Shown here in pieces: positions 296-33,382 of a stretch of DNA of 64,000 nucleotides. Every line of letters begins with the position of its first letter. Position 1 is the first letter of the stretch. Source of the stretch: Streptomyces sp. TRM68367 (lineage in GTDB: Bacteria; Actinomycetota; Actinomycetes; Streptomycetales; Streptomycetaceae); contig NZ_JACTVI010000003.1 of assembly GCF_014495685.1 (NCBI RefSeq), forward strand, positions 124,001-188,000, given 5' to 3'. A program made the translations under genes and the position numbers. The notes under the pieces were generated by a model. The model made no database searches, was not told the origin of the DNA, and was given only the letters and a program-made list of their open reading frames with translations.

Positions 296-1071
296 TTGGC
301 GACCGCCTGCGCTTCGGTCCCGGCTTCGGGCCCGGCTTCGGTCCCGGGAAGACGCGGCAGGTGGGGCTTGGTCGCGTACGCCACGAAGCTCTTGCCGATC
401 AGCGGGTTGAGGGCCTGTTCGGCGATCCTCGTCGCGAGCGGCTTCTGCATGATGTCCCAGACCAGCAGCTTGTGGTACGCCCGCACCGGCAGCGCCTTGT
501 CGTTGTCGACGCCGAACGCGCACTTCAGCCACCAGTACGGCGAGTGCAGCGCGTGCGCGTGATGCGTGCCGTACGGCTTGAGGCCCGCCTCGCGGATCCT
601 GGTCAGCAGTTCGTCCGCCCGGTAGATGCGGATGTGGCCGCCCTCGACCTCGTGGTAGGCGTCGGACAGGGCCCAGCAGACCTTCTCGGGGCCGTAGCGC
701 GGCACGGTGATCGCTATGCGCCCGCCGGGCCTGAGCACCCGGACCATCTCGGCGAGTACGCCCTTGTCGTCCGGTATGTGCTCCATCACCTCGGAGATGA
801 TCACGACGTCGAACGACTCGTCCGGGAAGGGCAGCGCCAGGGCGTCGCCCTCCATCGCCGTGGCGGTGGCTCCCTCGGGTGCCTCCCCGGCCTCTTCCAT
901 CGCCGCGAACCACTTGGCGACCTCGCGGATCTCCTCGGCGTTCTGGTCCAGCGCCACGACCTGGGCGCCGCGCCGGTAACACTCGAACGCGTGCCGCCCG
1001 GCCCCGCAGCCGAGGTCCAGGACACGGTCCCCCGGGGCGAGCGGGAACCGGGAGAAGTCGACGGTCAGCAC
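292..1071 (-). CDS. Class I SAM-dependent methyltransferase
   Basis: A 259-residue protein with the glycine-rich SAM motif VLDLGCGAGRHAFE near residues 19-32, an acidic residue after strand 2 (VALDQNAEE), the motif-II region FDVVIISEVMEHIPD and the post-II segment VLRPGGRIAITVP. This is the Methyltransf_11 arrangement used for small-molecule or lipid methylation. The start lies inside the end of the upstream glycosyltransferase gene (7-bp overlap) and its stop overlaps the start of the cyclase-repeat gene, so the three form one transcriptional unit. The C-terminus is rich in Ala, Glu and Pro and is probably disordered. The substrate is not evident. Confidence 0.85.
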   Translation of the reverse strand: MLTVDFSRFPLAPGDRVLDLGCGAGRHAFECYRRGAQVVALDQNAEEIREVAKWFAAMEEAGEAPEGATATAMEGDALALPFPDESFDVVIISEVMEHIPDDKGVLAEMVRVLRPGGRIAITVPRYGPEKVCWALSDAYHEVEGGHIRIYRADELLTRIREAGLKPYGTHHAHALHSPYWWLKCAFGVDNDKALPVRAYHKLLVWDIMQKPLATRIAEQALNPLIGKSFVAYATKPHLPRLPGTEAGPEAGTEAQAVAK

Positions 1072-2477
1072 GTGGCCCTGCTTTCGGGATAGACGCCTGC
1101 AACAGCTGTGGATGCCTCACTTTGCGAGGCCGCGGAGCGGCCGGGAACAGTCCCGGTGCGGCCGGAACTCCCGCCCGTGGAGCGGGTGATGGCCTCGCGG
1201 TACCGGGCCACCGTGCCCTCGGCGGCGCGAGCCCACGTGAAGCGCTCCAGCACCCGTTCACGCCCCGCACGGCCCAGCCGTACCCGCAGTTCCCCGTCCC
1301 CCAGCAGCCGGCTCAGCCCGGCGGCCAGCGCCCCCGCGTCGCCGGGCGGCACCGCCAGGCACGTCTCCCCGTCCCGCCCGGCGACCTCCGGTATCGCGCC
1401 GCCGGTCGTGGCCAGCAGCGGCGTCTCCGTGGCCATGGCCTCGGCGGCCGGCAGGGAGAAGCCCTCGTACAGGGACGGCACGCAGGCGACCTCGGCCGAG
1501 CGCACCAGGTCGACCAGTTCGGCGTCCGAGACGCCCTTGACGAACTCGACGGCGCCTTCGAGGCCGTACCGCTCCATCGCCCGGGCGACCGGGCCCTGTG
1601 CGGGCCGCTTGCCGACGACGACGAGGTGCGCGTCGGGTTGCTCGGTGCGCACCTTGGCCAGCGCCTCGACGAGGAAGACCAGGCCCTTGAGCGGCACGTC
1701 CGCACTGGACGTGGTCACGATCCGCCCCGGCACCTGCGGCACCGAGGGATCCGGCGCGAACAGGTCGGTGTCGGCGCCGATATGGACGACGTGGATGCGC
1801 TCGGGCCGTACGCCGAGGTGGTCGACGATCTCCTGGCGCGACGTGCCGGAGACGGTGAGCACGGACGGCAGGCGGCGCGCGACCCGCTTCTGCATGCGGG
1901 TGAAGGCGTACCAGCGGCGCACCGAGTACCGCCGCCGGCGGCCCTCCGCCGCGTCCAGCTCCAACTGCCGGTCGACGGTGATGGGGTGGTGGATGGTCGT
2001 CACAAGGGGGGAGCCGATCTCCCCCAACAGCCCGTAGCCCAGCGTCTGGTTGTCGTGGACGACGTCGAAGTCGCCACGCCGGGCGCGCAGATGACGGCGG
2101 GCACGCAGCGAGAAGGTGAGCGGCTCGGGGAAGCCGCCGGTCCACATCGTGGCGACCTCCAGCGCGTCGATCCAGTCGCGGTACTCGTCGCGCTTCGGGG
2201 TGCGGAAGGGGTCCGGCTGACGGTAGAGGTCGAGGCTGGGCAACTCGGTCAGAGCGAGGCCCTCGCACCCCTCGTCGAGGACGGGGTACGGCTGGGCGCC
2301 GATGACCTCGACGCGGTGGCCGAGGCGGGCCAACTCGCGCGACAGGTGCCGTACATAGACGCCTTGTCCCCCGCAGAACGGGTTTCCCTTATAGGTGAGG
2401 AGTGCGATGCGGAGCGGTCGCAAGCCGTCGGCGGCGGGGTCCTCCAGGGCCCCGGCCTCCCTGGCCTCAGCGGTCAC
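1065..2477 (-). CDS. Glycosyltransferase family 4 (GT-B fold)
   Basis: A 470-residue glycosyltransferase. The N-terminal Rossmann domain starts LRIALLTYKGNPFCGGQGVY, with the GGxGxY donor/acceptor loop typical of GT4 retaining enzymes. The C-terminal domain has the nucleotide-sugar signature SLYEGFSLPAAEAMA (the E-x7-E pattern) near residues 340-355. It is the first gene of a minus-strand set with a methyltransferase and a cyclase-like protein, suggesting assembly of a glycosylated and methylated lipid or polymer; that is inference. The start is ATG at 2477. The promoter lies in the 115-bp gap shared with the divergent tetR gene, which holds a KstR-like box, so co-regulation is possible. Confidence 0.88.
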   Translation of the reverse strand: MTAEAREAGALEDPAADGLRPLRIALLTYKGNPFCGGQGVYVRHLSRELARLGHRVEVIGAQPYPVLDEGCEGLALTELPSLDLYRQPDPFRTPKRDEYRDWIDALEVATMWTGGFPEPLTFSLRARRHLRARRGDFDVVHDNQTLGYGLLGEIGSPLVTTIHHPITVDRQLELDAAEGRRRRYSVRRWYAFTRMQKRVARRLPSVLTVSGTSRQEIVDHLGVRPERIHVVHIGADTDLFAPDPSVPQVPGRIVTTSSADVPLKGLVFLVEALAKVRTEQPDAHLVVVGKRPAQGPVARAMERYGLEGAVEFVKGVSDAELVDLVRSAEVACVPSLYEGFSLPAAEAMATETPLLATTGGAIPEVAGRDGETCLAVPPGDAGALAAGLSRLLGDGELRVRLGRAGRERVLERFTWARAAEGTVARYREAITRSTGGSSGRTGTVPGRSAASQSEASTAVAGVYPESRATC

Positions 2478-2592: not shown

Positions 2593-3393
2593 GTGAGCAG
2601 TGGATCAGGTGATTCACGCCACGGCGGACGCCATGCCATGCTGTCTGATCACTCACCCTCACCGACTGTCACGGACGGAACCATGCCTGCGGAAGCGAAG
2701 CTGGACAAGGCAGCCAAAGCGGCCAAGGCGGCCAGGCCGGCCAAGACGGAGGCCGGCGGCGCGCGCCCCGCGGCCGCGACCGGCTCCGTGCGCGCCGGAG
2801 GGCCGCCCTCCGCGCCGCTCACCGAGCGACAGGAGGCGCGCCGCCGCCGGATCCTGCACGCGAGCGCGCAGCTGGCCAGCCGGGGCGGTTTCGACGCGGT
2901 GCAGATGCGGGAGGTCGCGGAGACCTCGCAGGTGGCACTGGGCACGCTGTACCGCTACTTCCCGTCCAAGATCCATCTGCTGGTCGCCACCATGCAGGAC
3001 CAACTGGAGCATATGCACGGCACGCTGCGGAAGAAGCCGCCGGCCGGCGAGACGGCGGCGGAGCGGGTCGCGGAGACCCTGATGCGGGCCTTTCGCGCGC
3101 TGCAGCGCGAGCCCCATCTGGCCGATGCGATGGTCCGCGCGCTGACCTTCGCGGACCGCAGCGTCTCGCCCGAGGTCGACCAGGTGTCCCGGCAGACCAC
3201 GGCGATCATCCTGGACGCGATGGGCCTGGACGACCCCACGCCCGACCAGCTGTCCGCGGTGCGCGTCATCGGGCACACCTGGCACTCGGCGCTGATCACC
3301 TGGCTCTCGGGCCGCGCGTCCATCGCCCAGGTCAAGATCGACATCGAGATGGTGTGCCGGCTGATCGATCTGACGGCCCCTGCGGACGCATGA
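2593..3393 (+). CDS. TetR-family regulator, KstR-like
   Basis: A 266-residue TetR regulator. A long Ala/Lys-rich N-terminal extension (about 75 residues) precedes the DNA-binding domain: RRRRILHASAQLASRGGF, then the recognition helix region VALGTLYRYFPSKIHLL. The ligand domain contains FADRSVSPEVDQV and a C-terminal WLSGRAS segment. From memory these resemble mycobacterial KstR, the repressor of cholesterol catabolism that responds to CoA thioesters. The same kind of box lies upstream of this gene and of the aldehyde dehydrogenase, P450 and thiolase genes. The start is uncertain: GTG 2593 is used, but ATG 2638 or 2683 are possible and would remove much of the extension. Confidence 0.85.
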   Translation: MSSGSGDSRHGGRHAMLSDHSPSPTVTDGTMPAEAKLDKAAKAAKAARPAKTEAGGARPAAATGSVRAGGPPSAPLTERQEARRRRILHASAQLASRGGFDAVQMREVAETSQVALGTLYRYFPSKIHLLVATMQDQLEHMHGTLRKKPPAGETAAERVAETLMRAFRALQREPHLADAMVRALTFADRSVSPEVDQVSRQTTAIILDAMGLDDPTPDQLSAVRVIGHTWHSALITWLSGRASIAQVKIDIEMVCRLIDLTAPADA

Positions 3394-3425
3394 AAAGTCC
3401 GCGGACACCCGACGGGTCCGCGGAC
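3394..3425 (-). terminator. Intrinsic terminator after the TPP riboswitch
   Basis: Two copies of the self-complementary 10-mer GTCCGCGGAC (3397-3406 and 3416-3425) flank a 9-nt loop. Read on the minus strand, the hairpin is followed by TTTT, a factor-independent terminator about 21 nt downstream of the riboswitch. It starts directly after the tetR stop codon, so its plus-strand form may also end the tetR transcript. Confidence 0.7.
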
Positions 3426-3446
3426 ACGCGAACGACCTACGAGACG

Positions 3447-3567
3447 GGTTCCCTTCGCCGGCATTGTCCGGATCAGGTTATGGGGGTCGCCTTCCAGTCA
3501 TACACCTCTCAGTGTGTGACCTTCCGGCCTCTCAGCCCGTCCGTCGTAGTCGGCACCAGCGGAAGCC
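3447..3567 (-). ncRNA. TPP (thi-box) riboswitch, orphan
   Basis: On the minus strand this shows the conserved parts of the thiamine pyrophosphate riboswitch in order: a 5' P1 arm GGCTTCC, GGTGCC, the GGGCTGAGAGG core, an extended P3 stem, then AACCTGATCCGG, AATGCCGGCGAAGGGA and a closing GGGAACC arm pairing with the 5' arm (one mismatch). TPP riboswitches normally control thiamine biosynthesis or transport genes. Here a terminator follows, and beyond it the minus strand is antisense to tetR, so no controlled open reading frame is present. It may be a remnant of a lost thiamine gene, or produce a free small RNA or antisense transcript. Confidence 0.8.
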
Positions 3568-3653
3568 GAAACTTCCGGCCAGAGTCGGCCACTCCGGTCG
3601 AACTCCCTCACTCATCTCGTAGGTCTAATTTCATAGTAGTCCGTCCTGCCATG

Positions 3654-3681
3654 CACGGAAGACCTTGTTCCGTGATTTTTT
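3654..3681 (+). terminator. Rho-independent terminator
   Basis: Arms CACGGAA (3654-3660) and TTCCGTG (3668-3674) with a 7-nt loop are followed by ATTTTTT on the plus strand. This is a textbook terminator, rare in such GC-rich DNA. It would stop plus-strand reading from tetR before the convergent ferredoxin gene. Confidence 0.7.
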
Positions 3682-3722
3682 GCCCTAATTTCTCCTCGGT
3701 GCCCCTCAAGCTCCTCCCCGGG

Positions 3723-3956
3723 CTACTCCTCGGGCGGGAACACCGGCTCCCCGCTGCCCAGCAGGGTGATCACGATGGCCTCCACGGGGCAGCTCTCGGC
3801 CGCGGCCAGGACCTTCTCGTTGGCGTCCGTCTCCGGTTCGACCGGGTGGGACTGGCGGCCGGAGTCGAGGCGGAAGCCGTCGGGGGCATGGTGGACGCAC
3901 TGGGCGGAGCCGATGCAGAGGGAGCGGTCGACGTCCACCTGCCAGCGATCACCCAT
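3723..3956 (-). CDS. [3Fe-4S] ferredoxin
   Basis: A 77-residue ferredoxin with cysteines in the pattern CIGSAQC (residues 14-20) and a distal SCP (Cys56). The CX5C...CP spacing is that of actinobacterial P450-type [3Fe-4S] ferredoxins, which pass electrons from a reductase to a cytochrome P450. The start ATG lies 2 bp beyond the stop of the aldehyde dehydrogenase gene, so the two form an operon. The likely partner is the CYP125-like P450 at 7164-8402. No ferredoxin reductase is encoded nearby. Confidence 0.88.
   Translation of the reverse strand: MGDRWQVDVDRSLCIGSAQCVHHAPDGFRLDSGRQSHPVEPETDANEKVLAAAESCPVEAIVITLLGSGEPVFPPEE

Positions 3957-33310: not shown

Positions 33311-33382
<72 letters not shown>

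Follow-up and report, generated by a model that had tools for sequence, protein, structure and literature searches.

A 192-nt RNA with the fold of a TPP aptamer is conserved on the minus strand between a tetR gene and a ferredoxin gene in the 64,000-nucleotide stretch of Streptomyces DNA analyzed here (the window). We propose that it is a free-standing non-coding RNA gene derived from a TPP aptamer, with a P3 output that is clamped by P1, tuned by TPP and acts in trans. We put the probability of this reading at about one half. At the level of sequence, comparison of relatives shows a conserved fold, a promoter-like block, independence from the neighboring genes and separability of sensor and output. 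The features are listed in Table 1.

Table 1. Positions of the RNA, its parts and other features in the window
Feature	Position	Strand	Evidence or remark
Glycosyltransferase gene	1065..2477	-	PF00534; next gene on the strand of the RNA past tetR
tetR	2593..3393	+	PF00440 and PF17925; convergent neighbor, downstream of the RNA
Terminator-like hairpin with TTTT	3393..3425	-	Folding energy against shuffles
Full-length conserved RNA, 192 nt; P1 closes the TPP-aptamer fold	3434..3625	-	R1 model, 204.8 bits, E 1.5e-54
P1, 3' strand	3434..3449	-	RNAalifold; pairing in 155 distinct copies
P4/P5 half of the TPP core (ACCTGATC ... GCGAAGGGA)	3449..3480	-	RF00059, alignment; missing in 16 core-less copies
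P3a arm, length variable	3491..3528	-	Alignment, RNAalifold, core-less copies
CTGAGA (J3/2) of the TPP core	3530..3535	-	Read from the sequence; invariant in the A1 alignment
Insert in P3 (P3 extension)	3542..3594	-	RNAalifold; retained in copies without the TPP core
P1, 5' strand	3610..3625	-	RNAalifold; pairing in 155 distinct copies, compensatory changes
-10-like hexamer TACTAT	3633..3638	-	Conserved at -13 to -8 from P1 in 155 distinct copies
-35-like block (GGTCTTCC here; consensus GGGGGTTTC-like)	3657..3664	-	Conservation in 155 copies
A-tract, possible UP element	3676..3681	-	Fixed distance from P1, positions -55 to -51 in 155 copies
Ferredoxin gene	3723..3953	-	PF13370; same strand as the RNA, upstream
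tRNA gene	33311-33382	-	Gathering-threshold Rfam scan of the window

The fold of the RNA

The RNA lies between the convergent tetR gene and the ferredoxin gene, 98 nt from the latter. A gathering-threshold Rfam scan of the window reported only a tRNA. The thi-box family RF00059 matches 3432-3549 on the minus strand at 35.3 bits (E 2.4e-5 in a 461-base stretch, 1.2e-4 at the scale of the 9.67-Mb genome), under its curated gathering cut-off of 54.3 bits, and standard annotation misses the RNA because of this score. None of 18 loci in relatives reaches the cut-off. Among nine loci searched with RF00059, seven were matched at 33.5-54.0 bits, and at E 0.05 no match was found in L112, where the core is present, or in L113, where it is lost. 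The initial annotation had named a low covariance score as grounds for giving up the aptamer; the score is indeed low, but the insert in P3 accounts for it. The thi-box aptamer read on the minus strand is confirmed by the family match and by the same RNA in 100 of 295 genomes of the genus. The span first assigned to it, 3394-3567, contains a real element but leaves out 58 nt at the 5' end of the RNA.

Alignment of 30 loci revealed a conserved block from 3625 to 3434 with two complementary ends. RNAalifold of this alignment gives P1, P2, P3, CTGAGA, P3a and P4/P5, with the extra sequence within P3; an insert between P1 and P2, the first reading of the fold, was dropped on this basis. The Rfam alignment misplaces P3, and the relatives place P1 at both ends of the block. 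The copy in the window, folded alone, gives a minimum free energy structure of the same layout, P1 to P5, at -88.6 kcal/mol (z -3.97). When the downstream hairpin is included, the RNA and the hairpin form side by side. The P1 strands alone fold at -23.0 kcal/mol and no competing or alternative pairing to P1 was seen in folds of this RNA, which makes a classical P1 switch unlikely.

Pairing was assessed in 155 distinct RNAs taken from 171 loci (93 + 78, from overlapping assemblies). Standard pairs fill 1929 of the 2015 cells of the 13-bp P1 (95.7%), compared to 37-45% when the strands are slid. Several pairs have changed on both sides, for example one with A-U in 121 copies and G-C in 26. The exceptions are pair 12, which is C-A in 38 copies, and pair 1, which is unpaired in 31. 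Over the whole fold, both-side changes occur at 36 of 54 pairs in alignment A2 (93 rows) and 33 of 54 in A3 (78 rows), both of which were fitted to the structure of the R1 model described below and lean towards it. None of 500 shuffles scored as high, and slid versions are 34-49% paired. Covariation in the RNAalifold alignment, in P1 of the distinct copies and in these model-fitted alignments supports the P1, P2, P3, P4 and P5 helices of RF00059. The core nucleotides of RF00059, CTGAGA and ACCTGATC ... GCGnAGGGA, are found at the locus in the window and in 137 of the 155 distinct copies (136 by pattern and L118 by inspection, with L106 included though its core is changed). The remaining 18 are 16 core-less copies, the truncated L124 and the degenerate L200.

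A protein-coding origin was rejected. An end-to-end open frame is missing in 77 of the 155 distinct RNAs; there is one in 69 and there are two in 9, and single-base indels between the RNAs of relatives also count against coding. The copy in the window has a 27-codon ORF whose ATG, located by eye, is within P1. Most relatives have ACG at this start, which speaks against a conserved peptide; a local peptide is not excluded.

Distribution among genomes

A BLAST search with window positions 3380-3720 (minus strand) against 295 genomes of the genus gave long matches in many of them, 70-86% identical. The matches span about 82-303 of the query and so begin well upstream of the thi-box. We built a covariance model, R1, from the relatives (194 positions, 54 pairs). 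With the stricter filters used for the genus count, it gave one match in each of the 100 genomes (65.9-222.7 bits), with the next best at 39.3 bits, and the RNA was absent from the other 195. In the order sample, six of 14 genomes of one family (f3) carry the RNA at 75-115 bits. Two divergent copies (L116 and L117, 107 and 95.8 bits) are found in one genome, G305. Among 384 genomes of the class sample there were 12 matches at 1e-10, nine of them in the same genus; the other three are one in G663 (115.9 bits) and two ordinary leaders (54.8 and 48.2 bits) of thiO-like and thiC-like genes. Named genomes were also scanned with a pattern, which gave at least 118 stretches. Among the matches listed, 78 of 80 loci were confirmed, mostly in Streptomyces and also in Kitasatospora, Embleya, Actinacidiphila, Catenulispora, Actinomadura, Actinopolymorpha and one MAG.

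A mobile element was considered and rejected, as there is one copy per genome except for the two in G305. Phage sequences gave no match to the RNA, and plasmid records gave one partial match, on a 5.73-Mb Embleya replicon. Among 30 genomes without the RNA, 28 have tetR, and the best R1 match at these 28 loci (18.6 bits over 40 nt) was taken as chance. At six of the 28, ferredoxin adjoins tetR without the RNA and the gap is only 39-124 nt, which indicates that the RNA was gained or lost there as a unit.

The initial annotation had raised the possibility that the element is a remnant of a thi riboswitch that has lost its gene. The RF00059 score under the cut-off and the lack of a thi gene nearby are in line with this. 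The deep covariation makes a remnant strongly disfavored: 155 distinct copies retain the covarying fold, the promoter-like block is conserved in many contexts, and a single copy is kept in 100 of the 295 genomes. We give this explanation next to no weight.

Neighboring genes

A crude gene caller assigned neighbors at 165 loci. The nearest called downstream gene is convergent at 135 of these and belongs to many families, including tetR (87), a class-V aminotransferase resembling cysteine desulfurase (16) and a GMC oxidoreductase (6). It is co-directional at 30, and 10 of these form a clade in which it is an SDR/DUF2867 gene. The neighbors on both sides are unclustered at 16 loci. Counted by distinct copies, 82 of 155 have a tetR neighbor, and in 73 the downstream 1.2 kb contains no tetR. 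With neighbors that vary among loci, the RNA does not look tied to tetR. At L091, L095 and L097-L100, the RNA is located between a VapB-like antitoxin gene and the co-directional SDR/DUF2867 gene.

No thiO-, thiC- or thiB-like gene was found near the RNA at any of the 171 loci, within a median of about 3 kb on each side (some much shorter). The search recovered its positive controls. At the locus in the window no thiamine gene is found downstream of the RNA. The next gene on the minus strand encodes the glycosyltransferase, and its start (2477) is 957 nt past the RNA end, across the antisense of tetR. This agrees with the early observation that the sequence offers no gene to control.

A riboswitch acting in cis would use P1 and the T-rich sequence past it as a TPP-controlled terminator, and at low TPP transcription would reach the antisense of the convergent neighbor (tetR here) or the glycosyltransferase gene. 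T-rich sequence is found past P1, the gap from the RNA to the convergent gene is short at most tetR loci, and the SDR gene is co-directional in one clade. Cis action is possible in that clade, the only setting where it looks so. We regard it as doubtful for the RNA in general. Neighbors are unrelated and tetR is missing within 1.2 kb in the 73 copies noted above, the P1 of 13-16 bp folds together with the hairpin at the locus with no alternative pairing, and the core-less copies retain both P1 and the neighborhood. P1 is strong, and neither an antiterminator nor a ribosome-binding site competes with it; TPP is therefore not expected to switch a gene downstream. The same 73 copies argue against a conserved function in antisense control of tetR, as had been suggested, though an antisense effect on tetR could occur as a local side effect at this locus.

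The ferredoxin gene, on the same strand and 98 nt away, raises the further possibility of a 3'UTR element of its operon. At many loci, ferredoxin is either missing upstream of the RNA or 500-1400 nt away, and the RNA has a promoter-like block of its own. We consider this very improbable.

The promoter-like block and the 3' end

Three elements ahead of P1 are conserved in the 155 copies: the A-tract at -55 to -51, a GGGGGTTTC-like block at -40 to -32, and a TAnnnT-like hexamer at -13 to -8. Their consensus is the same at the 82 tetR loci and the 73 others. Streptomyces -10 regions are described as TAnnnT (PMC8079986). A sigma-70 consensus scan at the locus in the window gave no promoter upstream of the RNA. 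The P1 strands were also considered as terminal inverted repeats of an element; this was dropped, as conservation extends beyond P1 into the promoter-like block. Read on the plus strand, 3654-3681 (the A-tract with an inverted repeat next to it) resembles a terminator, a hairpin followed by TTTTTT, which could stop tetR transcripts ahead of the ferredoxin gene.

The hairpin with TTTT that had been described as a terminator is real at this locus. Its stem (3397-3425) starts 8 nt past P1 and folds at -28.4 kcal/mol, compared to a shuffle mean of -16.7 (z -4.6; none of 200 shuffles as good), and its T-run (3396-3393) overlaps the tetR stop codon. A simple terminator scan, which needs five T in eight, missed it. 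It is confined to few loci, however: among the 30 aligned, only this one has a hairpin with TTTT, though different hairpins or T-rich tails occur past P1 elsewhere. Some copies, like this one and L112, have a GC hairpin soon past P1. At least four T occur in the first 7 nt past P1 in 44 of 153 copies, compared to 0 and 4 in two control windows, so that T-rich tails mark a minority of copies.

Copies without the TPP core

Sixteen distinct copies lack P4/P5 and CTGAGA, 15 at tetR loci and L149 elsewhere. They keep P1 (198 of 208 pairs), the promoter block and the P3-insert strands. Mean pairwise identity among them is 0.85 and 0.90 in the P1 strands, 0.84 and 0.86 in the P3-insert strands, 0.71 in the insert tip, 0.43 in the CTGAGA region and 0.02 in P4/P5. 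On a tree of tetR DNA (82 rows), the 15 core-less copies need four changes, compared to a mean of 14.0 in 500 shuffles, none of them as low. Two clades among them are well supported. If only the starred branches are counted, one change suffices, so that a single core loss could formally account for the pattern, and the bootstrap had not converged. Outside tetR loci, the core is nearly always kept and the P3 insert varies, which suggests selection on the sensor there. We read the sensor and the second module, the P3 insert, as separable. In the core-less L101 and L103, the P3a arm has grown into repeated GAUC-GGAA-like units. The neighborhood of the core-less L113 contains a partial cobalamin riboswitch match at 1873-1930 (32.3 bits, just above the cut-off).

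Loss of the core in 16 copies would be unexpected if TPP sensing mattered everywhere. The RNA may instead be free-standing but have no part in TPP regulation: a stable, structured molecule with a protein partner bound through P1, the P3 insert and P3a, whose TPP core was inherited as a scaffold and then discarded in some lineages. The promoter block, P1 and P3-insert strands kept by at least 16 core-less copies agree with this, and so do the few places of core loss on the tetR tree. However, the core is kept in 137 of 155 distinct copies, and at the non-tetR loci the sensor appears to be selected while the insert varies. We judge this explanation unlikely.

Proposed mechanism

Among the three options raised initially, a stand-alone small RNA best fits the promoter-like block, the conserved fold and the many unrelated neighbors. 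We suggest that the RNA is transcribed from its own promoter just ahead of P1 and ends just past P1. The 13-16 bp of P1 would clamp its 5' and 3' ends together. TPP would hold both aptamer arms, and hence the extension of the P3 arm, in one orientation. The P3 extension and the clamped P1 would form an output module, tuned by TPP, with a protein or an RNA as its target in trans. Transcription, TPP binding, trans action and the direction of the effect are what we infer from the comparison. More tentatively, the RNA may represent a widespread actinobacterial class in which a TPP aptamer forms the body of a ligand-gated trans-acting RNA. Its P3 output module would be detachable and, in several lineages, would have become independent of TPP by excision of P4/P5. 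Natural versions that lack the sensor would provide a direct way to examine how an aptamer for a metabolite turns into an RNA that acts in trans.

A decoy like EutX, in which the P3-insert motif would recur at another place in the genome, was also considered and none was found. In 61 genomes, the paired motif occurs once each in 10, always at the RNA itself, and no second copy that could be a decoyed target is present. This speaks against a simple decoy. Half of the motif with one mismatch gave 74 and 79 matches, compared to 38 and 38 for the reversed control, which says little.

Comparison with known systems

The RNA shares with RF00059 the P1-P5 layout, CTGAGA and ACCTGATC ... GCGnAGGGA, and its core is the same as that of L001, the thiO riboswitch in this genome. 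It differs from RF00059 in its long P3 insert, its long and sequence-conserved P1, and the promoter-like block just ahead of P1. In addition, no thi gene or ribosome-binding site lies behind it, and the core is dispensable in 16 copies. Of the other two RF00059 matches in the genome, one (L001) precedes a thiO-like gene and the other (L002) a gene for a thiamine-type ABC transporter (both named by eye). The thiC leader (L247) is also a TPP riboswitch, unreported by the whole-genome RF00059 search. These thiO, thiB-like and thiC riboswitches have a homologous aptamer but lead into thi genes, and R1 scores them at 32.2, 19.5 and 17.7 bits, respectively, compared to 204.8 bits for the RNA. The P3a arm of the thiC riboswitch (about 906-1075 of L247) contains two palindromes, GTTTCACATGAAAC and GTTTCACACGAAAC (G000:C124:106542-106589), which we take to be parS-like. 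Fifteen perfect GTTTCACGTGAAAC sites are located on the same contig at 17955-95347.

An S. lividans listing gives two TPP riboswitches, neither of which is this RNA. The open-licence PMC papers searched gave no description of it. No TPP aptamer in a non-coding RNA was found in this literature, which does not prove its absence.

EutX and Rli55 are small RNAs that contain a B12 riboswitch (PMC7602753). As we propose for the RNA here, their aptamer belongs to a non-coding RNA and not an mRNA, and, in the account cited, the riboswitch terminates ahead of a separate ANTAR-binding part (PMC7602753). In the RNA, by comparison, the candidate effector is inside the P3 arm of the aptamer, and no copy of a decoyed motif was found. 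SreA and SreB are SAM riboswitches reported to act in trans (PMC8079631), a precedent for a riboswitch RNA as the trans-acting RNA that we propose here. SreA is described as a terminated operon leader (PMC8079631), whereas the RNA has no operon. The usual view of a riboswitch is that of a leader of the gene under its control, and a conserved TPP aptamer that is a gene of its own would depart from this.
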